A DNA stretch of 64,000 nt, taken from assembly GCA_947629335.1 (NCBI GenBank), contig CANRDI010000007.1, forward strand, positions 1-64,000, written 5' to 3'. The translations under genes and the position numbers were made by a program. This DNA is from an uncultured Clostridia bacterium. GTDB taxonomy: Bacteria; Bacillota; Clostridia; Oscillospirales; Ruminococcaceae. This document shows positions 6,095-58,316 of this stretch, in pieces. Within the stretch, counting starts at the first letter, position 1. Each line of letters begins with the position of its first letter. The notes beneath the pieces were generated by a model. It was not told where the DNA came from, did not search any database, and saw nothing but the letters and a program-made list of their open reading frames with translations.

Positions 6095-8632
6095 TTACTT
6101 TTTTCTTCTTACGTTAGGATTGTCGTCAGGCTCGCGCATTATCACATCAAAAAGCCGCTTTGTCTTATTCGATTTCGGATGTTTCTTTTCCTTTAGAATA
6201 TCAAGCTCCGAGCGGGGATCTTCTTCCTTAAATACATTTCTGTCCTCCGTCCATATGCCCGAAGGAGCGTTTTCTTTTGTTATCTTGCTCGGATATTCGC
6301 GTGCTTCGCTTTCTTCCCATTCGGGAGAAGGCTCGTTTTCATCTTCCGTATTTTTCACTAAGCGGCGGCGTTTCGTGCTTTCTTTCTCAAAACGTTCCTC
6401 GGTATTCGCAGTGTTTTGAGAATTTTCGAGAACGTCAAAAATGCTGTTTACATCCTTAAACGGCTCTTTGTCAGGCTCTGAAACAAGCTCGGTCGGTATT
6501 CTCCTGATCCTCGGCTGCTCTGCATTTTCTTCGGACAGTCCGACATCTTCGGGCAGTGCGCGCGAAACAATATCGATCTCCGGCGGCTGAGGAACAACAT
6601 TCGCTCCCGACATCTTTCCGTATGCCGATATTGCAGCCGCATTCTTCTTTATCACTCTCGTCCTCGGAACAGGTTTTGCTTCCTCACGCTCGGTTTTTTC
6701 GGTTCTATCGGTTCTCTCGGCTTTCCCGGAAAGTTTTTGCTCGGACTTCGGCTCTGTTTTTTTATTGCTCCGAACAAATTCTTCCTGCTCGAAAAACGAC
6801 TTGAACTCATTCTTATCTTCTTTTCCGACCGTTTCCTCAGGCTCGGAAAACTGTTTTTGTTCGGTTCGTCCGCGCAGCGCTTCAAGCTCCGCCAAAAGCC
6901 TGTCCTCTATGCTTTCGGGGATATTCGACTGCATTTCGGCTCTTGTTTCCTCAGAACGCACTCTTGTTTCCTCAGAACGTGCTCTTGTACCATCAGCACG
7001 CGCTCTTGCTTCCTCCGAACGCACAAACGTGTCTTTGACATACGGTTCGGTTCTCCGCTCAAAAGGCTCGGTTCGCGGAGAGTTTTTGCCCTCCGCGTCA
7101 GATTTCGGCTCTTCCTGCTGAGGCGCAAACGGGCGGAAATCGGCAGGGTTCGGTCGGGAAGTATAATTTTCCTCGCCTCGCGGTTCTCCTGCACGGATAA
7201 TGTGCGAGATCCTGCGCTCGCCTGTCCTGCGCGCAACCGAAGGCGAAACAAAAAATCCGTCTTTGGGAGACTGTTGAGCAAATGCCTCTTGAAAATCAGA
7301 GTTCTCAGGTTCTTCGGGTTCGGGCTTCTTTAGAGAACTGCGCTCTATCCTTTCGGGGACAAACGGCTTTACTATGCGCTCTTTACTGCCGCTTTCCTTC
7401 GGAACTTCAACTATCGGCTTACTTTTTGAAATATCTACCGTAAGCGAATAATCAAGGAAATCGTCAAATTCTTCGGGAGATATTTCGCCCGTGCGGACTT
7501 TATCCATCATTGCTGTCATATAAGAATACCAGTTTTCGTATTCTTTGGTGTTCATTGTACTTCCTACGCGGGAATACACTTCGTCCGTTACCGAGCGGGA
7601 TTTTTCCTCAAGTTCGGGCGTCATGCGCTTCGGCGGATTTTCTTCAAGGTATTCGTCAAGACAGCTCTTTCCGTTATGGAGATAATTACAATAATCCTCG
7701 TCGTAATCCTTTCCTCTGTAATACCGCTTTTTGCATTTCGGACATACGGCAAGATAGCCTCCCGACTCGATTATCGCGTCTATTTCAAGATCTACGACAG
7801 CTTTAAGGCTGCACGGCATATAGATCTTATCATACTTTTCCATTTTGCTCCGCATGATATTATAACTCGAAAGCTCTGCGGAAAGTCCGTTTTTCATTCG
7901 TGAAAATGCGTCCATAGCTATCTCGTCTGAAATTCCCGTATAATCTTTTATGTCGGAATAATCGTCCGAATAGTCGAAATCCGCCAGAACATTTCGTATT
8001 ATGTCCTTTGATATCGACGGAAACATAAAGGGAGAATTAGGTATCCTTCCGATAGAAAAGACCTTTGTTTCTCCGAGTTTATCGATTCGGCACCCCATTT
8101 CGCTCGCGGTGACGGAAAACATAAGGTCGAAATAATTTCTCCGAGCCGCCGCGTCCGCCGCAGATTTAATGCCGTTCATAAAAACAAATTCGATCTTGCT
8201 TACGGCATAATCCCTTATACGAAGGATATTGAGCCACTCGTTTATCGCGCGGTTATACCTGAACTCGCAGAGCCTTTGGAAAACGGCTTTTTCAAATTTT
8301 GTACGGCAGGAGATAAATCTGTTCCAGAGCGTGCCTGTGCCAACGTTGTCGCGCCTGCAAAGAAAATCTATATAACAGTCTATCGGCAGTTTTTCATATA
8401 TAGTACGGATATGGTGTTCAATATAACAGTGCGCGGTCTGTATATCGCGTTTAAGCTCGGCAAAACGGTCAAAATCTATCTCGCCTGTCTTTTGCGCCTC
8501 GCTGCACGCTTCTACCGCTCTCTTTGCGAAATATGACAGGTCATAATCGCAAAAATCGAGCAGCGTCGACGGATACCGCAGCACATATATTTCATTCGAG
8601 CTTTGCCCGACCAGCTTCAGCGTTTTATCCAT
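6095..8632 (-). CDS. Large zinc-finger protein with disordered charged tail (DUF6076-like)
   Basis: An 845-residue protein of unknown function with no signal or membrane segment. Residues 1-330 look folded and alpha-helical and end in a likely zinc site with Cys297, Cys300, Cys315 and Cys324 (CPKCKKRYY start). From about residue 335 on, the chain is highly charged and low in complexity, and includes a run of RSEETR/RARADGT-type repeats near 550-590. The N-terminal part resembles DUF6076-type proteins of Clostridia, which is a weak recognition. The start at 8632 follows AAGGAG. The gene lies 19 bp downstream of the membrane protein gene and is probably co-transcribed with it. Confidence 0.75.
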   Translation of the reverse strand: MDKTLKLVGQSSNEIYVLRYPSTLLDFCDYDLSYFAKRAVEACSEAQKTGEIDFDRFAELKRDIQTAHCYIEHHIRTIYEKLPIDCYIDFLCRRDNVGTGTLWNRFISCRTKFEKAVFQRLCEFRYNRAINEWLNILRIRDYAVSKIEFVFMNGIKSAADAAARRNYFDLMFSVTASEMGCRIDKLGETKVFSIGRIPNSPFMFPSISKDIIRNVLADFDYSDDYSDIKDYTGISDEIAMDAFSRMKNGLSAELSSYNIMRSKMEKYDKIYMPCSLKAVVDLEIDAIIESGGYLAVCPKCKKRYYRGKDYDEDYCNYLHNGKSCLDEYLEENPPKRMTPELEEKSRSVTDEVYSRVGSTMNTKEYENWYSYMTAMMDKVRTGEISPEEFDDFLDYSLTVDISKSKPIVEVPKESGSKERIVKPFVPERIERSSLKKPEPEEPENSDFQEAFAQQSPKDGFFVSPSVARRTGERRISHIIRAGEPRGEENYTSRPNPADFRPFAPQQEEPKSDAEGKNSPRTEPFERRTEPYVKDTFVRSEEARARADGTRARSEETRVRSEETRAEMQSNIPESIEDRLLAELEALRGRTEQKQFSEPEETVGKEDKNEFKSFFEQEEFVRSNKKTEPKSEQKLSGKAERTDRTEKTEREEAKPVPRTRVIKKNAAAISAYGKMSGANVVPQPPEIDIVSRALPEDVGLSEENAEQPRIRRIPTELVSEPDKEPFKDVNSIFDVLENSQNTANTEERFEKESTKRRRLVKNTEDENEPSPEWEESEAREYPSKITKENAPSGIWTEDRNVFKEEDPRSELDILKEKKHPKSNKTKRLFDVIMREPDDNPNVRRKK

Positions 8633-12743: not shown

Positions 12744-14018
12744 CTAAACGGAGCTTATCTTCTTTATATCCGCTCCGACAGAACGCAGCGCGTTTTCTAT
12801 GCTTTCATAGCCGCGCTCGATAAAATTCACGCCGCTTATTTCCGTTGTGCCCTCTGCGGCAAGTGCCGCTACGACAAGCGCCGCGCCTCCCCGAAGTTCC
12901 GAAGCGCAGAGCTTTGCGCCGGAGAGCTTTTTTACTCCCTCGATAACGCAAACTCTTCCCTCGACTTTTACAGACGCGCCGAGCCGCACAAGCTCGGAAA
13001 TATGACGAAAACGATTTTCAAATATTGTTTCAACAAAGACCGACGTTCCCTCGGCGGTCGTGCAAAGCGCGGTAAACGGGGCTTGAACGTCCGTAGGAAA
13101 GCCCGGATAGGGCATTGTACGAACGGTAGACGGAGCGGTGAGCTTTTTGCGGCTGTTCAAATAAATTTTCCCGTCGCCGTATGTATATGTCCTTACTCCC
13201 ATCTGCTCCAAAACGGGGATAAATCCGTTCATCTGCGAAGGGTCGCAATGCGTTAATATCAGTTCTCCGCGAGTTATTGCGGCGGCGCACATATATGTGC
13301 CCGCGACAATTCTGTCTGGAATAACGGTGTGTTCCGCGCCAGAAAGCTCCGTAACTCCTTCGATACGGATAGTGCTTTCGCCTGCGCCGCTTATTTTCGC
13401 GCCGAATTTGTTAAGACAATCCGCCAAATCAACTATCTCAGGCTCCCGCGCGGCGTTATGTATCTCGGTAACTCCCTTTGCAAGCACCGCCGCAAGCAGA
13501 ATGTTTTCCGTCGCTCCGACTGACGAAAAAGAGAGCGTTATTTTCGCTCCGCGAAGTCCCGAAGGCGTCTGACAATCGAGATATCCGTGTTCTTCGGTAA
13601 TTACCGCGCCCATTTGTTTCAGCGCGGACAAATGCAGGTCGATAGGTCTCGAACCTATTTCGCATCCTCCCGGAAAAGACAAGCGGCAGCGCCCCGTTCT
13701 TCCGAGAATTGAACCGAGAAAGATCACGCTTCCTCTCATGCGGCGCATAAGGTTTTCGGGAATTTCATTTTCGGAGATGTGCGACGCGTCAACTGTCACC
13801 GTATCGCCGCTTCTGCGGCATTTACAGCCCAAGCGCGTAAGTATCCGGCAAGCCGCGTCAATGTCCGAAAGTTTCGGACAATTATGAAAAATGCTCTCGC
13901 CATGCACCAAAACCGCCGCCGATAAGATCGGCAAAGCACTGTTTTTCGAGCCTTGTACGGCAATTTCTCCCTCAAGCCGTTTTCCGCCGTTTATTATCAG
14001 TCTCGCCTGATTATCCAT
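12744..14018 (-). CDS. murA: UDP-N-acetylglucosamine 1-carboxyvinyltransferase
   Basis: A 424-residue enzyme for the first committed step of peptidoglycan synthesis: transfer of enolpyruvate from PEP to UDP-GlcNAc. The active-site cysteine is kept (Cys119 in FPGGCEIGSRPIDLH), so fosfomycin sensitivity is expected. The UDP-GlcNAc-binding QGSKNSALP lies at the N-terminus. The start at 14018 follows GAGGTGAT. It sits between murG and ftsQ. Confidence 0.96.
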   Translation of the reverse strand: MDNQARLIINGGKRLEGEIAVQGSKNSALPILSAAVLVHGESIFHNCPKLSDIDAACRILTRLGCKCRRSGDTVTVDASHISENEIPENLMRRMRGSVIFLGSILGRTGRCRLSFPGGCEIGSRPIDLHLSALKQMGAVITEEHGYLDCQTPSGLRGAKITLSFSSVGATENILLAAVLAKGVTEIHNAAREPEIVDLADCLNKFGAKISGAGESTIRIEGVTELSGAEHTVIPDRIVAGTYMCAAAITRGELILTHCDPSQMNGFIPVLEQMGVRTYTYGDGKIYLNSRKKLTAPSTVRTMPYPGFPTDVQAPFTALCTTAEGTSVFVETIFENRFRHISELVRLGASVKVEGRVCVIEGVKKLSGAKLCASELRGGAALVVAALAAEGTTEISGVNFIERGYESIENALRSVGADIKKISSV

Positions 14019-41704: not shown

Positions 41705-42766
41705 TCAGTGCTTTTTCTTTGCAACAACAACCGCCGCGCCCGCAAGTGCAAATATGCCGAGCGACATTGCAATGCCGCCGAAGCCTGTGTCGGGGCTTTC
41801 GGTGCTTCCGTTGTCAGAGCCGCTGTTTGAATTTTCAGCGTCGGAGCTGTCGGAAGAAGATGAGTTGTTTGCTTCGCTGTCAGTTGAAGATGAAGTGGTG
41901 GGATCGCTTGAACTGCTCGGAGTATAGGAACTGCTCGGTGTATTTGAACTACTGTCAGAGGAACTGCTCGGTGTATCGGAGCTGCTCGGAGTATTTGAAC
42001 TGCTGTCAGAGGAACTGCTCGGTGTATCGGAGCTGCTCGGAGCATTTGAACTGCTGTCAGAGGAACTGCTTGAACTTTCGGGCTTTGGAGCAGCGCCGTA
42101 GTTGTAATGTACTTCTGTGGTTTCGGCAAGACCGATATTCTCAACGTCCGAAATTGTCCTCCACTGCTGCTTAGAGCCGGTAAAATAAATATCGCTTATG
42201 TTTGCGGAGAATGTGGGAATAACTTTTCCGCTTATCCAACCTCCTGTGAAAGATATGCCTGTGTGTATGATAATACTTTTCAGTACTGCACAGTCCCCAA
42301 ACGCCCCGACACCTATAGTTTTCACGCTTTCGGGAAGAGTATATGTCGTTCCGGATTTAGCCGCAGGATATAATACAAGCTCTATTTTGTTCTTTTCAAA
42401 CAAAATTCCATCGGCAGATGAAAAGTTTTTGCTTTCCTCTGAAACAATTACCTCTTTAAGTTTAGAACAGCCTACAAAGCTGAAACTATTTATATATGTA
42501 ACACTTGCGGGAATTTCTAAAGTTTCAAGGTTTTCACATACATTTAATCTGCATCCTATTTCTTTAACTCCTTCGGGAATAACGATTTTCGTCGCCTTTT
42601 TTCCCTCGTCGGTAATTTCTGTTACAACATTTTTTTCAATAACAAAATACCCGTTTTCGTCAACTGTGCTTTCCGTCTGCGAGTTTTCCGCAGCCGCTGC
42701 GGTGACAACAGTCGTTGTCATCAATGCACTTGCTAAAATAATTGCGCTAAGTTTTTTGATATTCAT
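41705..42766 (-). CDS. LRR_5 (BspA-like) surface protein 1, sorting-signal end
   Basis: A 353-residue secreted protein. Residues 1-26 are a signal peptide (MNIKKLSAIILASALM start). Residues about 45-215 hold about five LRR_5 repeats of the type IPEGVKEIG...LETLEIPASVTYI. Residues about 230-320 are a Ser-rich stalk with 17-residue tandem repeats (SSSDTPSSSS pattern). The end is SPDTGFGGIAMSLG, a hydrophobic helix and KKKH, resembling a noncanonical sortase signal. BspA-like LRR proteins often bind host or plant surfaces. It is the shortest of the three paralogues here. A structured leader precedes it. Confidence 0.85.
   Translation of the reverse strand: MNIKKLSAIILASALMTTTVVTAAAAENSQTESTVDENGYFVIEKNVVTEITDEGKKATKIVIPEGVKEIGCRLNVCENLETLEIPASVTYINSFSFVGCSKLKEVIVSEESKNFSSADGILFEKNKIELVLYPAAKSGTTYTLPESVKTIGVGAFGDCAVLKSIIIHTGISFTGGWISGKVIPTFSANISDIYFTGSKQQWRTISDVENIGLAETTEVHYNYGAAPKPESSSSSSDSSSNAPSSSDTPSSSSDSSSNTPSSSDTPSSSSDSSSNTPSSSYTPSSSSDPTTSSSTDSEANNSSSSDSSDAENSNSGSDNGSTESPDTGFGGIAMSLGIFALAGAAVVVAKKKH
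41920..42075. repeat. 51-bp tandem repeat in the stalk of LRR protein 1
   Basis: About three 51-bp units (GAACTGCTCGGTGTATCGGA on the plus strand) encode the 17-residue Ser/Asp/Asn/Pro repeats. Differences are few, so length variation between strains is likely. Confidence 0.85.
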
Positions 42767-42977
42767 TTATATCCTCCGTATTCTTTGCGGTATAAATTAT
42801 TTCAGCGCAATTTTCCCGCAAAAACAAAAAGTGCGCAGCCGAAGCCGCGCACTGTAAAAATGCAAGCTCCGAATTGCTGCGACACAAATTCTTTTTCCTA
42901 AAAAACGGTATAGAAAAGCGAGCACTTTTACCAAGGTAAAAGTAACCGATTTTTAGGAAATTATTCAATTGCGTCGC
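42767..42977 (-). promoter_or_regulatory. Structured leader of LRR gene 1 (candidate attenuator)
   Basis: The minus-strand leader has a closing stem with 5' TGCGACGCAA and 3' TTGTGTCGCA. Inside are a long stem (TTTCCTAAAAA/TTTTTTAGGAAA) capped by ACTTTTACC/GGTAAAAGT. Next come GCAGCAAT and a TTGCATTTTT segment, then a terminator-like hairpin GTGCGCGGC-TTCG-GCTGCGCAC with TTTTTGTTTTT (42852-42821). A TTTTGCGG...CCGCAAAG stem ends just before GGAGG. The same plan precedes the other two LRR genes. Confidence 0.65.
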
Positions 42978-42983
42978 AACATA

Positions 42984-43012
42984 ATTATACCATCTTATGA
43001 ACATTTTGTCAA
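42984..43012 (-). promoter_or_regulatory. Promoter of LRR gene 1
   Basis: TTGACA (43012-43007) and TATAAT (42989-42984) on the minus strand are perfect with a 17-bp spacer. Confidence 0.85.
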
Positions 43013-44828: not shown

Positions 44829-44857
44829 TTGACAAATTGCGGGGATTGTGATAGAAT
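44829..44857 (+). promoter_or_regulatory. Promoter of LRR gene 2
   Basis: TTGACA (44829-44834) and TAGAAT (44852-44857) are 17 bp apart. The start would be at the first base of the leader's closing stem (about 44863). Confidence 0.8.
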
Positions 44858-44862
44858 GAAAA

Positions 44863-45084
44863 TGCTACACAACCGAATATTTGTCTATAAAGGTTGCACT
44901 ATACCTATAGGTAAAAGTGCAAGCTCTTTTCGTGCATCCTTTATAGAAAATGGAACACGGTTGTGTAGCAGCAATGAGCTATGCATTTTTCGTGCGTAGC
45001 TTCGTGCTGCGCACTTTTTTATTTTGCGGGAATTGCGCGCGGCAATAATAAAAACAGACCGCAAAAAGAACGGAGGACATTAAA
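44863..45084 (+). promoter_or_regulatory. Structured leader of LRR gene 2 (candidate attenuator)
   Basis: P1 pairs TGCTACACAACCG (44863-44875) with CGGTTGTGTAGCA (44958-44970). P2 pairs CTATAAAGG (44885-44893) with CCTTTATAG (44938-44946). P3 pairs TTGCACT with AGTGCAA. AGCTATGCA (44977-44985) can pair with TGCGTAGCT (44993-45001). That pairing competes with the terminator GTGCGTAGC-TTCGT-GCTGCGCAC (44992-45014) followed by six T. A TTTTGCGG...CCGCAAAA stem precedes GGAGG. Confidence 0.7.
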
Positions 45085-47343
45085 ATGAAAGCAAGAAAAC
45101 TCAGCGCAATTCTTTTGGCAGGCGCGCTAATGGCAACGCCCGCGGTTACTACGACGGCAATGGCGGAAAGTTCGCAGGAGGAATACCAAGATTGGTACTA
45201 TGAAGACCCGACTGGAAATCTTTTTATAGCAAAAGCTACACACGCTGTAATAGGTCTCACAGAGAAAGGAAAAAATGCTAAAGACATAGTTATTCCCGAA
45301 GGAGTGGGATCAATTTTTGAGTATGCTTTTGAAGATTGTACGAATATTGAAAGCATTGTTATCCCGGATAGTGTGAATTACATTATGACTCGTGCATTTG
45401 CCGGATGTACAAACCTCAAAAATATAACTTTCCCTGAGTATATGACCGAAATTGACAGCGGCGCTTTTGCCGGAACACAGTGGCTCGAAGATAGAAGAAA
45501 GGAAAATCCGCTTGTTATAGTAAGCAACATATTGATCGACGGAACGACATGTTCGGGAGATGTTACTATTCCCGAAGGCATTACAACTATTAACGTATCT
45601 GCGTTTTCCGGATGTGAGGGTCTTGAAAACGTTACTATTAAAGGCGCGAGTACTATTGGATTATGCGCTTTTTACAGATGCACAAATCTTAAAAGCGTGA
45701 CAATAGAAAGTGTTACAAATATCGATGCGATGGCTTTTGAAGAATGTACAAGCCTTACGAGCGTAACGCTGCCGAGAAATACTTACTATATGGAACGTAA
45801 TGCTTTTAGCGGCTGTGAAAATTTAAAAGATGTATATTTTAATGGCACTATAGAAAATTGGAACGATATATTGGTTGGTTTCCGTAACCGTTCCTTTAAA
45901 GGAGACCATTATGTATCGGATTTTGAATATCCTATGGGAAGCGGACCGCATGAAGAATTTAACAACAAAACCGCGCAGGAATATGTGTTTGGAGACGCCG
46001 AGATACATTTTGCCCAGACCTTTGACGAAAACGGATTGTGTATAGTTGATAATGTTTTAGTTGACTGCCGTAGCGATGTTAAGAACGTCGTTATTCCTAA
46101 TAATGTCGTAGGAATCGGAGAAAGCGCTTTTAAAGACTGCAAAGCGCTTGAAAGCGTGACCATTCCGGAAAGCGTAAAGACTATAGGAGCGAAAGCTTTT
46201 GATAACTGCGAAAGCCTTGAAAGCATAAAGATCCCCGACAGCGTGACAGAGATAGGCGATCGTGCTTTTTATAACTGCAAAGATCTTAAAGCAATAAATG
46301 TTTCCGACAAAAACAAAAACTATTGTTCAATTGATGGGGTTTTGTTTGAAAAGGATATAAAAATATTGCTTTGCTATCCTGCAGGCAAAACAGATAAATC
46401 ATATTCAGTTCCGGAAAGCGTTACAAGTATAGTACAAGAGGCTTTCAGAAATTGCATAAATCTCGAAAAAATAGATCTTCCAAAAAAATTAAAAATTATA
46501 GATACATCTACATTTTATAACTGTACTAATCTTAAAAGTATTGATATCCCCGACGGCGTAACCGGCATTGGAAGAGAAGCTTTTACTTTATGTATAAATC
46601 TTACTAACGTAATAATTCCCAAAAGCGTGACAAGAATTGAATATGGGTCTTTCTTAAAAACTCAAAACCTGAGTGATGTGTATTATACGGGTTCGCAAGA
46701 ACAATGGGAGCAAATCGAAAATATAGAAGGCTCGTATCTTGGAAGTACAGTCAAAATTCATTACAACCATGTCCGTCCAACAAAATTCACCGACGAAACC
46801 ACGGGCATAGAAGCTTCGGCGGATAACGGCGTTATACCCGACGGCGCGGCACTCTCCGTAAATGCAGTAACAGACAAGACTGACGATACAAAGGTTACTT
46901 ACGAAATTTCAATCAAGGGCGCTGACGGCAAAGAGGTTCAGCCGAAGGACGGCAAAGTTACCGTAAAAATCCCCGTTCCCGAAAAGTTCAGCGGCAAGGA
47001 GATTTTCGTTTACCGCGTAGAAGCCGACGGAAAATATACCAACATGAACGCGGAAACTGACGGCGATTATATCGTATTTACTACCGACCATTTCAGCGAG
47101 TATGTAATTTCCACAAACGGAACTCTTGCCGATACGACCGAAAGCTCGGACAGCGATAATTCTTCCGACAACTCCGACAGCGAAACAAGCTCGGACATCG
47201 AGACTTCCGACAACAGCTCCGACAGCGAAAGCAGCGGCTCGGATAAATCCCCGAACACAGGTTTCGGAGGTATTGCAATGTCGCTCGGAGTGTTTGCACT
47301 TGCGGGCGCGGCGGTTGTTGTTGCAAAGAAAAAGACACGCTGA
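45085..47343 (+). CDS. LRR_5 (BspA-like) surface protein 2, sorting-signal end
   Basis: A 752-residue secreted protein. Signal peptide 1-29 (MKARKLSAILLAGALMA start). Two blocks of LRR_5 repeats fill about 50-290 and 325-565 (VVIPNNVVGIGESAFKDCKALE type). A module of about 110 residues (565-675) ending TDHFSEYVIS is shared with LRR protein 3. A Ser/Asp-rich stalk follows, then SPNTG at 722-726, a hydrophobic helix and KKKTR. It is likely attached to the envelope and may bind substrate or host. It has its own promoter, leader and terminator. Confidence 0.87.
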   Translation: MKARKLSAILLAGALMATPAVTTTAMAESSQEEYQDWYYEDPTGNLFIAKATHAVIGLTEKGKNAKDIVIPEGVGSIFEYAFEDCTNIESIVIPDSVNYIMTRAFAGCTNLKNITFPEYMTEIDSGAFAGTQWLEDRRKENPLVIVSNILIDGTTCSGDVTIPEGITTINVSAFSGCEGLENVTIKGASTIGLCAFYRCTNLKSVTIESVTNIDAMAFEECTSLTSVTLPRNTYYMERNAFSGCENLKDVYFNGTIENWNDILVGFRNRSFKGDHYVSDFEYPMGSGPHEEFNNKTAQEYVFGDAEIHFAQTFDENGLCIVDNVLVDCRSDVKNVVIPNNVVGIGESAFKDCKALESVTIPESVKTIGAKAFDNCESLESIKIPDSVTEIGDRAFYNCKDLKAINVSDKNKNYCSIDGVLFEKDIKILLCYPAGKTDKSYSVPESVTSIVQEAFRNCINLEKIDLPKKLKIIDTSTFYNCTNLKSIDIPDGVTGIGREAFTLCINLTNVIIPKSVTRIEYGSFLKTQNLSDVYYTGSQEQWEQIENIEGSYLGSTVKIHYNHVRPTKFTDETTGIEASADNGVIPDGAALSVNAVTDKTDDTKVTYEISIKGADGKEVQPKDGKVTVKIPVPEKFSGKEIFVYRVEADGKYTNMNAETDGDYIVFTTDHFSEYVISTNGTLADTTESSDSDNSSDNSDSETSSDIETSDNSSDSESSGSDKSPNTGFGGIAMSLGVFALAGAAVVVAKKKTR

Positions 47344-47515: not shown

Positions 47516-47562
47516 TATATTGAATATATATGGGAGTAATTTATAAATAGGGGGTGTCGGAA

Positions 47563-49245
47563 ATGGAGCTTATACACACTGAACAAAAGCATCTTTTTGA
47601 CGATATAAAAAATTGTCACCCTAAGAATTATGATGAATTTAATTCGCTTTCCAAAAATGCTGTGGAAAATATCGCCGAAACATTCGGAATTGTAAAGGCA
47701 GAGTATTTGCTGTCCTTAAAGCGTCTTGCCGACCCCGACCTTTCAGCAAAAGAGGTCGTTATTTATGAAAATAATTCCCCGATAAAAAACGAACCGCTTC
47801 GGTTTGAATATGAACTTTCGTCCGAAGGAACAGCCGCTTTTTCGGTTTATACCGAAAAGAGCAAAAACGAACTGACAGCGGACGAAATTTGGCAGATAGA
47901 AGTCGATTTCAGACAGCTTTATTATATACTGAATGGGCTTGTGCTCGAATTGTCATGCGAAAAGCTCTCGCTCGTGGATCATCAGACGGGTATTCCGAAC
48001 TCAAAAGCGTTTATGCGTTTTGCCTCGGATATTATCAAAAATGGCTCTGCGAGCAATTATACCGCGCTTTTCTTCAATATCCGAAATTTCAAGTCGGTAC
48101 ACCGCGAACTTTCTTATGTCGAGGGAAATAATGTCCTGATAAAATACAGCCGCATGATACAGGACGCGATAACAAAAAAGGAAATTGTAGCCCGTACAGG
48201 CGGGGATAATTATATTGCGCTTATACTTAACGACCACCTCGATTATTTCCTCGACCTTTTGCAGAATATGATAGTATTCTACGAAAAGGACGGGAAAAAA
48301 CTGACCTTTATGTTCGGCGCGTCAATCGGCGCTCTGAAACTTTCGGACGAGTATGATATCGGCGATATCATGCTTAATACAAATGTTGCATATCAGAACG
48401 CAAGAGAAAATCGACAGCTTTTTAAGCTGTATGATAAACAGTCAAGCATGAGCCTTATCGAAAGAAAGATAATACTTTCACAGTTTCATAAGGCGCTCAG
48501 CGACAGAGAATTTTATGTCGTTTATCAGCCTAAGGTCGGCGTTAAGGACAGAAAACTCAGAGGCGCGGAGGTTCTTGTGCGCTGGCATCACGACGGCGGA
48601 GATATTATGCCGGGAAGTTTTGTATCTATTCTTGAACAGGACGGCTGTATCTGCACGCTTGATTTCTTTATGCTCGAAGAGGTGTGCAAGCTCCAGAAAA
48701 AGCTCATTGACCAAGGTCTTGAACCCGTAAGGATATCCGTAAATTTCTCAAAGCGCCACCTTACAAACAATAAACTTGTAGAAGAGATAGCCTGCGTTAT
48801 TGACCGCTACAATGTTCCGCACGAGTTTATCGAAGTAGAGCTTACCGAGGGAGAAAATTCGTATAATCAGGGTGTTATGAGCGATGTCGTAAACGATCTC
48901 GGCTCGCTCGGAATAAGAACTTCTATAGATGATTTCGGAACGGGTTATTCGTCGCTCGGAATGTTGAAACTGCTGAATTTAGACGTTCTGAAAATTGATA
49001 AGAGCTTTATTCCCGAAGCGCCGGTAGATGATAACGATAAGAGCTTTCTCATGCTCAAAGGTATAATAACTCTCGCAAAAAGTTTAGGACTTACGATTGC
49101 AGCAGAGGGTGTTGAAACAAACGCTCAGTTCGAGCTTATCGAAAGTCTCGGCTGCGACATAGTACAGGGATTTATTTTCGACAAGCCCCTGTCGGAAAGC
49201 GAGTTTATCGAAAGAATAAAGCATAAGGATTACGTTCTTGAATAA
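47563..49245 (+). CDS. Degenerate-GGDEF/EAL c-di-GMP phosphodiesterase
   Basis: A 560-residue cytoplasmic protein. The N-terminal region of about 140 residues has no recognised sensor. The GGDEF domain (about 145-300) has its site changed to GGDNY, so cyclase activity is unlikely. The EAL domain (about 305-550) keeps the ligands: EVL replaces EAL, and then come SVNFS, ELTE, DDFGTGYSS, KIDKSF, EGVET and QGFIFDKP. It probably hydrolyses c-di-GMP. The start at 47563 follows AGGGGGTG. It forms an operon with the FIST gene 24 bp on. Confidence 0.9.
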   Translation: MELIHTEQKHLFDDIKNCHPKNYDEFNSLSKNAVENIAETFGIVKAEYLLSLKRLADPDLSAKEVVIYENNSPIKNEPLRFEYELSSEGTAAFSVYTEKSKNELTADEIWQIEVDFRQLYYILNGLVLELSCEKLSLVDHQTGIPNSKAFMRFASDIIKNGSASNYTALFFNIRNFKSVHRELSYVEGNNVLIKYSRMIQDAITKKEIVARTGGDNYIALILNDHLDYFLDLLQNMIVFYEKDGKKLTFMFGASIGALKLSDEYDIGDIMLNTNVAYQNARENRQLFKLYDKQSSMSLIERKIILSQFHKALSDREFYVVYQPKVGVKDRKLRGAEVLVRWHHDGGDIMPGSFVSILEQDGCICTLDFFMLEEVCKLQKKLIDQGLEPVRISVNFSKRHLTNNKLVEEIACVIDRYNVPHEFIEVELTEGENSYNQGVMSDVVNDLGSLGIRTSIDDFGTGYSSLGMLKLLNLDVLKIDKSFIPEAPVDDNDKSFLMLKGIITLAKSLGLTIAAEGVETNAQFELIESLGCDIVQGFIFDKPLSESEFIERIKHKDYVLE

Positions 49246-55543: not shown

Positions 55544-55549
55544 TAAGGT

Positions 55550-55745
55550 ACGGCATAATTTTTTCTATTTTACAATAACACTTTCTCCTTTAGTGTACGG
55601 GTTTAATAGGGAAAGAATTGTGCTGCGGCAATTTGAAGCCGGCATTTTTAAAGGTGCGCGGCTTCAATGCTGCGCGCTTTTTGTTTTTGCGGGAATTGCG
55701 CGCGGCAAAAAAAATATACCGCAAAAAGAACGGAGGATTTTTTAA
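55550..55745 (+). promoter_or_regulatory. Structured leader of LRR gene 3 (candidate attenuator)
   Basis: GCATAATTTTTTC (55553-55565) pairs over 13 positions with GAAAGAATTGTGC (55611-55623), enclosing an ACACT/AGTGT hairpin. TTGAAGCC (55633-55640) can pair with GGCTTCAA (55660-55667). That pairing competes with the terminator GCGCGGC...GCTGCGCGC plus TTTTTG (55656-55683). The TTTTGCGG...CCGCAAAA stem and GGAGG are as in LRR gene 2. Confidence 0.65.
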
Positions 55746-58316
55746 ATGAAAGTAAGAAAACTAAGCGCAATTCTTTTAGCAGGCGCGCTAATGGCAACAC
55801 CCGCGGTTACTACGGCGGCAATGGCTGAAAGCTCGCAGACGGACAGCGCCGACAGCACACAAAACATTGTTGACGAAAGCGGAAATCTTATTATTGAGGG
55901 AACTACTGTAACAGGTGTTACAGAAAAAGGAAAGACGGCTAAAGATATAATTATTCCCGATGGTGTGACACATATTGACGTTTCTTTTGAAAGCTGTACA
56001 AATCTTGAAAACGTATATATTCCTGATGATACGGTATTTCCTCTGGACGTTTTTCGCAATTGCAAAAAACTTAAAAACATAAATGTTTCATCGAGAAATG
56101 AGTATGTACGTTCGATAGACGGGGTTCTGTTTCAAGGCAGTAACTACTCCTTAACATTGGTATTTTATCCCGAAGGCAGAACAGATGAAAGTTATTCAAT
56201 TCCCGATGTTTACAATATCGGCGATATGGCGATTTGCAACGATAGTCTTAAAAGCATAACTATACCTTATTATGGTTCATTTTATGGCAATCAGCGTGTT
56301 CTTGATTGTCCAAATCTCACCGACGTGTATTTTTCCGGCACAGAGGAAGATTGGAAGAAAATGTTTGAAGAAAAAACCGCAAAAGATTTCGGCATACCGG
56401 AAACCGCAACTATCCACTATAACAACAATGACGAAAGCAGCGCACAGGATATTGTTGACCCCAGCGGAAACCTTAAAATTGAAGGAACGGTCGTAACGGG
56501 AGTTACGGAGCAGGGTGAAACGGCAACGGAGATAGTTATTCCCGAAGGTGTGACAAAAATCGATAGTTCTTTCTATAGTTGTAAAAATCTTAAAAGCGTG
56601 ACTATTCCCGCAAGTGTTACAAAAATCGGCGAGTTGCCTTTTTACTCATGTGATAGCCTTGAAAGCATAAATGTTTCCGAAAACAATAAAAACTATGTAT
56701 CAGTTGACGGCGTTTTATTCAACAAGGATAAAACAGAACTCATACGTTATCCTTCTGCAAAAGCGAATACTTCTTATACTGTTCCCGACGGCGTTAAAAT
56801 AATTGGCGACTGGGCTTTTGCCCCCGGCGGTTGGTATAACGATGATGAACTTAAGTTTAACCTTACAGAAGTAATCATTCCCGACAGCGTGACGAAAATC
56901 GGCTATGGAGCTTTTTCCGGCAGCTCTATTTCAAGTGTGAAAATCGGCGAAGGCGTTACCGAAATCGGCATCGGAGCATTCGGCTATACCGATCTTACAA
57001 GCGTAACAATTCCCAAAAGCGTAAAAACAATCGGCAATCTAGCTTTTTCAGACTGTAAAAAACTTGAAGAAGTCAAATATTCAGACGGCTTAAAAGACCT
57101 CGGACGCGATGTTTTTGACAATACTCCCTGGCTCGAAAAGAAATCTGATGAAAATCCTCTTGTGGTTATCAACGGCATACTTATAGACGGAAGCAAATGC
57201 AAGGGCGATGTGGTTATTCCTTCAACCGTTACTGTAATCCAGCCTGAAACTTTTGAGGACAACGAAAATATTACAAGCGTTGTTATTCCCGAAGGCGTAA
57301 CCAAAATTGATGTAGACACTTTCAGCGGCTGTACAAAGCTTGAAAACATAACCATTCCGAAGAGCGTAACTTTTATATACGATAGTGCATTTGAAAAAAC
57401 GCCCTGGCTTGAAAACAAGATAAAAGAAGATCCGATGGTTATTGTCAATGATATTTTAATCGACGGCTCAGCTTTAAAGGGCGATGTTGTTATACCGAAC
57501 AATGTAAAAATGATTAGCTATTGCTTTACTAATTTTGGCGAAGAAAAAACCATAACAAGTCTTACATTCGGCAAAAAAGTTAAAACAATGTTTCTTGACG
57601 GTTATTTCCCTGTGCTGTCAGAAATTTATTTCAACGGCTCGCAAGAACAGTTTGATAAAATAGTCGTATACGCTTATCCGCATAAAGGCGGAGCAGCTGA
57701 TATGTATGATCTTTACACGCATATGGACATTCAAACTCTTGAAAAGGGGCATTATGATGCGGGTTGCACATTCCACTTTGCAAAGCCCGTGACCCTTACA
57801 ACCGAAAATGTAGTTCTTGACGCGGAAGCGGGCGTTCTTCCCGACGGCGCAAAGCTGAACGTTGAGCCGATTGCCGATAAAACCGACAGCACAATGGCTG
57901 CTTATGAAATTACCCTGACCGAAAACGACAAGGAAATTCAGCCCGACGGAGATGTCACGGTAAAAATTCCCGTTCCTGCGGCTCTCAAAGGCAAGACCCT
58001 CTATGTTTTCAGAGCTGAAGATGACGGCAAGTACACCAATATGAACGCGAAACTTGACGGCGATTATATGGTATTTACTACCGATCATTTCAGCGAGTAT
58101 GTTGTTACGATTGACGGAACTCTTGCCGACACGCCCGAAAGCTCGGACAGCGACAATTCTTCCGACAATTCCGACAACGAAAGCTCCGACAGCGAAAATT
58201 CAAACAGCGGTTCGGATAAATCCCCGAACACAGGTTTCGGAGGAATTGCAATGTCGCTCGGAGTATTTGCTCTTGCGGGCGCGGCAGTTCTTGTTTCAAG
58301 AAAGAAAACCAAATAA
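55746..58316 (+). CDS. LRR_5 (BspA-like) surface protein 3, sorting-signal end
   Basis: An 856-residue secreted protein, the largest of the three paralogues. Signal peptide 1-29 (MKVRKLSAILLAGALMA start). Two repeat blocks start with near-identical lead-ins (NIVDESGNLIIEGTTVTGV and DIVDPSGNLKIEGTVVTGV), so the N-terminal half looks internally duplicated. LRR_5 repeats run to about 640. The module ending TDHFSEYVV (about 690-790), a Ser/Asp/Asn stalk, SPNTG at 826-830, a hydrophobic helix and RKKTK follow. The role is probably adhesion or binding at the cell surface. Confidence 0.87.
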   Translation: MKVRKLSAILLAGALMATPAVTTAAMAESSQTDSADSTQNIVDESGNLIIEGTTVTGVTEKGKTAKDIIIPDGVTHIDVSFESCTNLENVYIPDDTVFPLDVFRNCKKLKNINVSSRNEYVRSIDGVLFQGSNYSLTLVFYPEGRTDESYSIPDVYNIGDMAICNDSLKSITIPYYGSFYGNQRVLDCPNLTDVYFSGTEEDWKKMFEEKTAKDFGIPETATIHYNNNDESSAQDIVDPSGNLKIEGTVVTGVTEQGETATEIVIPEGVTKIDSSFYSCKNLKSVTIPASVTKIGELPFYSCDSLESINVSENNKNYVSVDGVLFNKDKTELIRYPSAKANTSYTVPDGVKIIGDWAFAPGGWYNDDELKFNLTEVIIPDSVTKIGYGAFSGSSISSVKIGEGVTEIGIGAFGYTDLTSVTIPKSVKTIGNLAFSDCKKLEEVKYSDGLKDLGRDVFDNTPWLEKKSDENPLVVINGILIDGSKCKGDVVIPSTVTVIQPETFEDNENITSVVIPEGVTKIDVDTFSGCTKLENITIPKSVTFIYDSAFEKTPWLENKIKEDPMVIVNDILIDGSALKGDVVIPNNVKMISYCFTNFGEEKTITSLTFGKKVKTMFLDGYFPVLSEIYFNGSQEQFDKIVVYAYPHKGGAADMYDLYTHMDIQTLEKGHYDAGCTFHFAKPVTLTTENVVLDAEAGVLPDGAKLNVEPIADKTDSTMAAYEITLTENDKEIQPDGDVTVKIPVPAALKGKTLYVFRAEDDGKYTNMNAKLDGDYMVFTTDHFSEYVVTIDGTLADTPESSDSDNSSDNSDNESSDSENSNSGSDKSPNTGFGGIAMSLGVFALAGAAVLVSRKKTK

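Follow-up and report, generated by a model that had tools for sequence, protein, structure and literature searches.

What are the folded leaders that precede surface-protein genes in this DNA, and what do they do? The window (the whole stretch of 64,000 nucleotides analysed here, from an uncultured Clostridia bacterium) contains three of them, leaders A, B and C, each located 5' of a gene for an LRR_5 (BspA-type) protein; this short folded RNA, found before several surface-protein genes, resembles a switch that turns transcription on or off. Based on sequence comparison, we assign a probability of about 0.72 to these leaders belonging to an uncatalogued family of cis-acting Clostridia RNAs that serve as transcription attenuators of riboswitch design, with the gene probably OFF when a pseudoknot is formed. 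The parts of the three leaders are listed below, with R1 denoting the first covariance model of the family.

42823..42979, minus strand: leader A, P1 to terminator (R1 match of 153.4 bits, E 5.5e-28; this copy is among the building set of R1)
42984..43012, minus strand: promoter of leader A, TTGACA-17-TATAAT (exact string; -10 ends 4 nt before the leader)
42969..42978, minus strand: P1 5' strand, leader A
42878..42887, minus strand: P1 3' strand, leader A
42922..42932, minus strand: core GGTAAAAGTGC, the pseudoknot 5' strand, leader A
42854..42863, minus strand: GCATTTTTAC, the pseudoknot 3' strand and top of the antiterminator 5' arm, leader A
42861..42873, minus strand: antiterminator 5' arm TTCGGAGCTTGCA, leader A
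42826..42852, minus strand: intrinsic terminator, leader A
41705..42766, minus strand: LRR_5 (BspA-type) protein behind leader A (Pfam PF13306, E 2.2e-13)
44862..45022, plus strand: leader B, P1 to terminator (R1 match of 123.7 bits, E 6.9e-22; also among the building set of R1)
44829..44857, plus strand: promoter of leader B, TTGACA-17-TAGAAT (exact string; -10 ends 4 nt before the leader)
44863..44872, plus strand: P1 5' strand, leader B
44961..44970, plus strand: P1 3' strand, leader B
44884..44893, plus strand: P2 5' strand TCTATAAAGG, leader B
44938..44947, plus strand: P2 3' strand CCTTTATAGA, leader B
44910..44920, plus strand: core GGTAAAAGTGC, the pseudoknot 5' strand, leader B
44983..44992, plus strand: GCATTTTTCG, the pseudoknot 3' strand and top of the antiterminator 5' arm, leader B
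44975..44985, plus strand: antiterminator 5' arm TGAGCTATGCA, leader B (the same arm occurs in locus L061)
44992..45020, plus strand: intrinsic terminator, leader B
45085..47343, plus strand: LRR_5 protein behind leader B (Pfam PF13306, E 4.5e-95)
55548..55685, plus strand: leader C, divergent, lacking the pseudoknot core (R1 match of 69.2 bits, E 1e-10; a TATAAT box ends 4 nt upstream)
55627..55644, plus strand: antiterminator 5' arm, leader C
55653..55682, plus strand: intrinsic terminator, leader C
55746..58316, plus strand: LRR_5 protein behind leader C (Pfam PF13306, E 4.2e-64)

An earlier interpretation made from the letters alone (the sequence-only reading) had named most of these elements, and they are present in the window sequence where it had placed them. 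Model matches start 1-2 nt 5' of the leader starts that it quoted, and in all three cases the end of the -10 box lies 4 nt upstream of the match. Folded up to the start codon, the leaders have z values against dinucleotide shuffles of -6.65 (44863), -5.32 (42977, minus strand) and -5.71 (55550), and for each of them 0 of 200 shuffles folded as well as the real sequence. The pattern GCAATN{4,20}GCATTTTT occurs 3 times in the window, with a shuffle mean of 0.21 and a count of 3 reached by 1 of 100 shuffles. The single element order claimed for the three leaders holds for A and B, but leader C is divergent and does not have the conserved inner core. Compensatory pairs do exist in P1, although their labels had been exchanged: TGCTACACAA/TTGTGTAGCA belongs to the leader at 44863 and TGCGACGCAA/TTGTGTCGCA to the minus-strand leader. 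Likewise, the antiterminator segment 5' of the terminator, which had been restricted to the second and third leaders, is found there but in fact occurs in all three. A TTTTGCGG/CCGCAAA stem near GGAGG, also proposed as a conserved part, was rejected as a component of the RNA, its pattern being present in only 23 of 161 leaders and in 7 of 12 own-genome copies. In the window this stem lies between terminator and Shine-Dalgarno sequence (45022-45076, 42773-42823 and 55685-55736), and the 23 leaders that carry it come nearly all from the source genus.

The window leaders are members of a large RNA family that is common in gut Clostridia. The GCAATN{4,20}GCATTTTT pattern was found at 21 places in the source genome (reversed pattern: 2), ten of which were recognized as leaders by inspection. 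Nine own-genome leaders were aligned, one P1 position displaying all four Watson-Crick pairs, and the alignment was used to build R1, which returned 22 matches at E <= 1 in that genome. Twelve scored at least 69 bits, among them leader C and a copy truncated by the end of its contig; four were tandem copies of a type designated type-3 (35-50 bits); and the remaining six were weak, several lying antisense to a leader. The genome holds 11 normal copies, plus divergent ones. Among 61 related genomes, R1 matched 32 (22 of 37 within the genus and 10 of 24 outside it), and since 15 of the 37 genus genomes gave no match, the RNA is dispensable. The sequence-only reading had proposed a covariance model and a search of Clostridia genomes for homologues with covariation, and a second model, built from 79 sequences, did recover many: 134 of 395 genomes (76 of 172 genera) in a sample of the order and 81 of 393 genomes (48 of 220 genera) in a sample of the class. 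In a sample of the phylum it matched 2 of 398 genomes, both belonging to the source order. Copy numbers in these surveys are lower bounds, with 7 candidates scored per genome. By our reading, the carriers span 38 family codes, 18 in the source order and 20 in the other orders of the class. An exact pattern was located in at least 116 stretches of named genomes; the 80 stretches listed derive from metagenome-assembled genomes and uncultured bacteria (Clostridia, Oscillospiraceae, Ruminococcus, Ruminiclostridium, Monoglobus and others), mostly from animal guts and rumens. The pattern is also found near the end of one contig of a viral collection (L305, IMG/VR, 6517-6547). Leader copies occasionally lie close together on one strand, as tandem riboswitches do (L146:1501-1984, L172:1501-1884 and L182:1041-1675).

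The family was compared with catalogued RNAs. At gathering score, the 4227 families of Rfam 15 yielded one tRNA in the whole window and nothing on the leaders, in line with the sequence-only reading, which had suggested an Rfam search and had placed the leader in no known riboswitch class, with T-box and c-di-GMP families absent. With the threshold relaxed to E <= 10 around leaders A and B, only sub-threshold hits were obtained, none of them close to its cut-off and the one on leader B being L20_leader (18.8 of 58.7 bits), and 20 loci in relatives, most of them divergent, gave three tRNAs and one Gut-1, none overlapping a leader. Searches of titles and abstract starts found no paper describing the RNA; candidate-RNA lists in supplements lie outside that scope, and a 2017 study reportedly listed 224 candidate RNAs. 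As far as the Rfam and literature searches reach, the family is therefore uncatalogued.

Comparative analysis of sequences establishes the family, its stems, the pseudoknot, antiterminator and terminator, and the position of the promoter. A total of 161 leaders were assembled from 112 rows by removing 11 (seven weak antisense matches and four type-3 copies) and adding leader C and 59 more. Two L132 pieces, L122, L030, L033 (leader C), L126, L128, L130 and then L106 were left out before pair counting. Anchors for the resulting 152 leaders were taken from conserved sequence and not from complementarity (two, L178 and L179, by eye), and counts were made on 90 non-redundant leaders, each differing at 5 or more of 54 anchored bases. 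In these, pairing across the 12 pairs of the closing stem P1 reaches 99.4%; 11 of the 12 show two-sided changes, and two-sided cells number 158. None of the four measures was reached by shuffles (0 of 300), and partners slid out of register pair at 30-50%. On a parsimony tree, P1 shows 84 double changes, 34 single pairing-preserving changes and 5 breaks. Sliding the stem by 1-2 columns leaves no more than 5 doubles and raises the breaks to 105 or more. When halves were swapped among leaders, own P1 halves averaged -18.8 kcal/mol and permuted ones -10.9, and own P2 halves -23.5 against -9.1, with 0 of 5000 permutations as good in either case. The sequence of P2 is not conserved, yet it pairs, and in 80 of 90 leaders the own partner outranks all others in its row. 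The tree was drawn from the same bases as the pair counts; shuffle and swap tests keep relatedness in, and the tree count removes it only roughly.

A further pairing, absent from the sequence-only reading, is a pseudoknot between the core GGUAAAARYGC inside P1 and GCRUUUUU 3' of P1, a partner also quoted as the segment GCAUUUUU. Over 10 tested pairs, of which the outermost is not really paired, 92.2% of cells are paired; two-sided cells number 52, above a shuffle maximum of 38 (0 of 300), and the 7 two-sided pairs and 20 pair types were each reached by 1 of 300 shuffles. For nine pairs placed on the tree, 14 changes are double and 47 are single with pairing preserved, and pairing breaks 20 times, the outermost pair accounting for 11 of these; slid pseudoknots break 53-92 times. 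Taking slid versions of P1 and pseudoknot together, breaks range from 53 to 152 and doubles do not exceed 8. Slid by -2, the pseudoknot still retains 8 double changes and 36 two-sided cells, because both strands are A/U-rich. In the swap test, own strands average -9.5 kcal/mol and permuted ones -7.6 (0 of 5000 permutations as good). The core may also form a local hairpin, P3 (-10.3 against -7.1). Outside the stems, conserved bases comprise AAUA 3' of the P1 5' strand, the GG heading the core and, after the core, CUC with a run of U; we suggest that the U-rich strand CUCUUUUUCG beside the core could form U-A-U triples.

The conserved domain is followed by what reads as an expression platform and preceded by a promoter. 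Sigma-A-type promoters (at least 9 of 12, gap of 3-9 nt) lie in front of 75 of the 90 leaders, against 44 of 900 mononucleotide shuffles, with a gap from promoter end to leader of exactly 4 nt in 68, 5 in 6 and 7 in 1. Given this spacing, the transcript should start with P1. A conserved structured domain is hence located at mRNA 5' ends across lineages, the transcript start being taken from the promoters, and P1 at that start leaves no room for a Shine-Dalgarno sequence 5' of it, as a leader peptide there would need. In all 90 leaders a terminator hairpin of 6 bp or longer is present, and 89 have a T-run. The terminator 5' arm pairs with CGGAGC..GC(A/G), forming the predicted antiterminator. 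In the wide set, own antiterminator halves average -14.1 kcal/mol and permuted ones -12.1, with 0 of 5000 permutations as good and 72 of 90 own pairs beating the mean of swapped pairs; in the nine own-genome copies alone, the antiterminator has no two-sided change and does no better than shuffles. This covariation with the terminator arm, together with the covarying homologues, bears out the attenuator-like architecture that the sequence-only reading had proposed. Since GCRUUUUU provides both the pseudoknot 3' strand and the antiterminator top, the two structures should be mutually exclusive. Median energies, in a calculation that ignores kinetics and pseudoknots, are -14.8 kcal/mol for the antiterminator (computed before the terminator 3' arm exists), -6.9 with the pseudoknot strand blocked, and -16.7 for the terminator. 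A blocked strand weakens the antiterminator, so pseudoknot formation would lead to termination and its absence to read-through. By sequence and energy, mutually exclusive folds are thus linked to the conserved domain, as in a riboswitch.

The mechanism that we propose runs as follows. RNA polymerase would start at P1 or a few nt from it, and P1 and P2 would fold into a closed domain presenting the core GGUAAAARYGC, with GCRUUUUU emerging once polymerase is past P1. Should the core capture GCRUUUUU in the pseudoknot, the antiterminator would remain incomplete and the terminator would stop transcription about 160 nt from the start; should it not, GCRUUUUU would close the antiterminator CGGAGC..GCA/UGC..GCUUCG, consuming the terminator 5' arm, and the gene would be transcribed. 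It follows that the gene would be turned OFF by a signal, most probably a small molecule, that stabilizes the P1-P2-pseudoknot domain. Switching in the cell, its OFF direction and a small-molecule signal are what we infer from this arrangement. The small molecule is a first guess, made because conserved unpaired bases surround a pseudoknot, and the pocket may be the pseudoknot itself, with a U-A-U triple helix of core, GCRUUUUU and the conserved CUCUUUUUCG strand.

Several own-genome copies depart from this design. Leader C and five others (four identified by the model and one by reading behind C14:35737) keep the closing stem, antiterminator and terminator-like end wholly or partly, and the core is missing. 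Core-less copies are found at C14:45411-45563 and C17:12966-13129, 13220-13383 and 13475-13637, several of them in tandem just 5' of a normal copy, and a regular expression for the type-3 core motif, run across the collected loci, recovered just 2 of the divergent set. Leader C and its like have either decayed or represent a variant that responds to a different trigger; in the same vein, either the core-less copies are dead or not every member needs the pseudoknot.

The genes behind the leaders are enriched for exported proteins. An open reading frame preceded by a Shine-Dalgarno sequence begins within 420 nt downstream of 143 of the 161 leaders (median 35 nt, a count made without a control run), and by a crude rule 113 of these 143 products look exported, 33 with a lipobox. 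The same rule gives 58 of 80 exported and 15 of 80 with a lipobox in the non-redundant set, and passes 14 of 35 large open reading frames of the window; across named records, it is satisfied by 47 of 64 genes behind a leader and by 188 of 493 other open reading frames (p 1.4e-7). Pfam was scanned with 75 of the 80 non-redundant targets, cut at 450 aa, leaving out one duplicate and four short or doubtful reading frames. The link to LRR_5 genes that had been proposed is real but too narrow, LRR_5 (E <= 0.001) being found in 24 of the 75 and the remainder being mixed, with 68 Pfam families overall; the best 25 of these 68 and inspection of targets include an ABC transporter, an AMP-binding enzyme (twice), a sugar transferase and SUFU. 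In the source genome, LRR_5 genes with a leader are located on contigs C7 (three), C11 and C17, and LRR_5 matches on C4, C5, C9, C10, C14, C25 and C28 have no adjoining leader. Similar AMP-binding enzymes (N-terminal G[FY]PSIDKPWLKYY) follow a leader in two family codes of the order (L066:1682-3031 and L152:134-1483). Ten target proteins compared with PHROGs for a phage link gave one clear hit, in which L184 matched an antitoxin family (E 1.4e-8); the others gave weak hits or none, and several small target proteins were unmatched.

Such varied targets point to no ligand, and the signal may therefore be a protein or another RNA. The strongest competitor of a ligand-sensing leader, a reading that we take seriously but consider clearly less probable, is a protein-responsive attenuator in which a trans-acting RNA-binding protein on the P1-P2-core domain picks terminator or antiterminator; mixed targets and many copies per genome would suit a protein regulon as well as a ligand. 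The two antitermination families tested do not, however, follow the RNA. No genome of the 61 has LoaP above the NF033641 cut-off; 56 match below it, and these matches look like ordinary NusG, because 13 of 14 control genomes match too. ANTAR is matched in the source genome, but 6 of the 10 carriers from outside the genus have no match. Neither LoaP nor ANTAR is hence supported as a partner.

That the terminated 160-nt product is itself a functional small RNA, with the gene behind it incidental, would fit the promoter at its 5' end and the terminator at its 3' end, which make it a free-standing unit; this we regard as improbable, given that the antiterminator covaries with the terminator arm, that a reading frame follows closely in most cases and that exported proteins are enriched behind the leader.

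Still less probable is a new class of riboswitch for c-di-GMP or another GGDEF-made dinucleotide, a ligand hinted at in the sequence-only reading by the neighbouring phosphodiesterase gene. An EAL+GGDEF protein is encoded at 47554-49245 of the window, behind the LRR gene of leader B and followed by a FIST-domain protein, and the GGDEF domain (PF00990) occurs in all 37 genus genomes. According to PMC11477304, 12 class I and 4 class II c-di-GMP riboswitches of C. difficile control surface and other genes. Within the genus, however, GGDEF is equally present in the 15 genomes with no RNA match, and outside it 6 of the 10 RNA-positive genomes show no PF00990 match (G042, G046, G056-G058 and G060; completeness 86-98%), a result that argues against GGDEF-made dinucleotides in general and on which c-di-GMP was rejected as the ligand. 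Diadenylate cyclase (DAC) is encoded in 61 of 61 genomes, with and without the RNA alike, and the known c-di-AMP riboswitch class had no Rfam match in the window or at the 20 relative loci. Mere descent, in which promoter and leader travelled with LRR genes as these were duplicated and regulate nothing, would explain why leaders B and C share their 3' part and, in their genes, the signal peptide, but it is hardly tenable given the same RNA before unrelated genes and in 38 family codes, and the strong pairing constraint, whose covariation already contradicts it.

The leader RNA is thus real and widespread, and its operation as an attenuator is well supported by the comparative evidence. For the narrower proposal that the attenuator constitutes a new riboswitch class confined, as sampled, to Clostridia, with a signal other than c-di-GMP, a regulon of surface proteins and lipoproteins and up to about a dozen copies per genome, we see even odds; the signal could be an unrecognized second messenger or a host- or diet-derived gut compound. 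Any orphan riboswitch candidate indicates a signal that matters to the cell, and this one occurs, often in multiple copies, in about one third of the genomes sampled from the order and one fifth of those from the class, its carriers being, among the matches listed, mostly uncultured gut and rumen bacteria. As the RNA precedes genes that shape the bacterial surface, its ligand would show how that surface adapts, and the covariance model can serve as an annotation tool.

Among known systems, the c-di-GMP-I and -II riboswitches (Rfam GEMM) are likewise multi-copy 5' leaders; they act at the level of transcription, and the genes they regulate include surface and envelope genes (PMC11477304). The leader RNA differs from them in having no Rfam match and in that some of its carriers have no GGDEF domain. 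Riboswitches with A-U-rich pseudoknots include the SAM-II and preQ1 types, from which the leader RNA is set apart by its targets, its expression platform and, again, the lack of an Rfam match, but with which it shares a stem domain containing an A-rich segment that pairs with sequence farther 3'. Finally, the leader RNA differs from T-box and ribosomal leaders in giving no match to them at gathering score, and from ANTAR- and LoaP-controlled leaders in that the presence of these proteins does not follow it, but it resembles all of these attenuators in opposing a terminator to an antiterminator.
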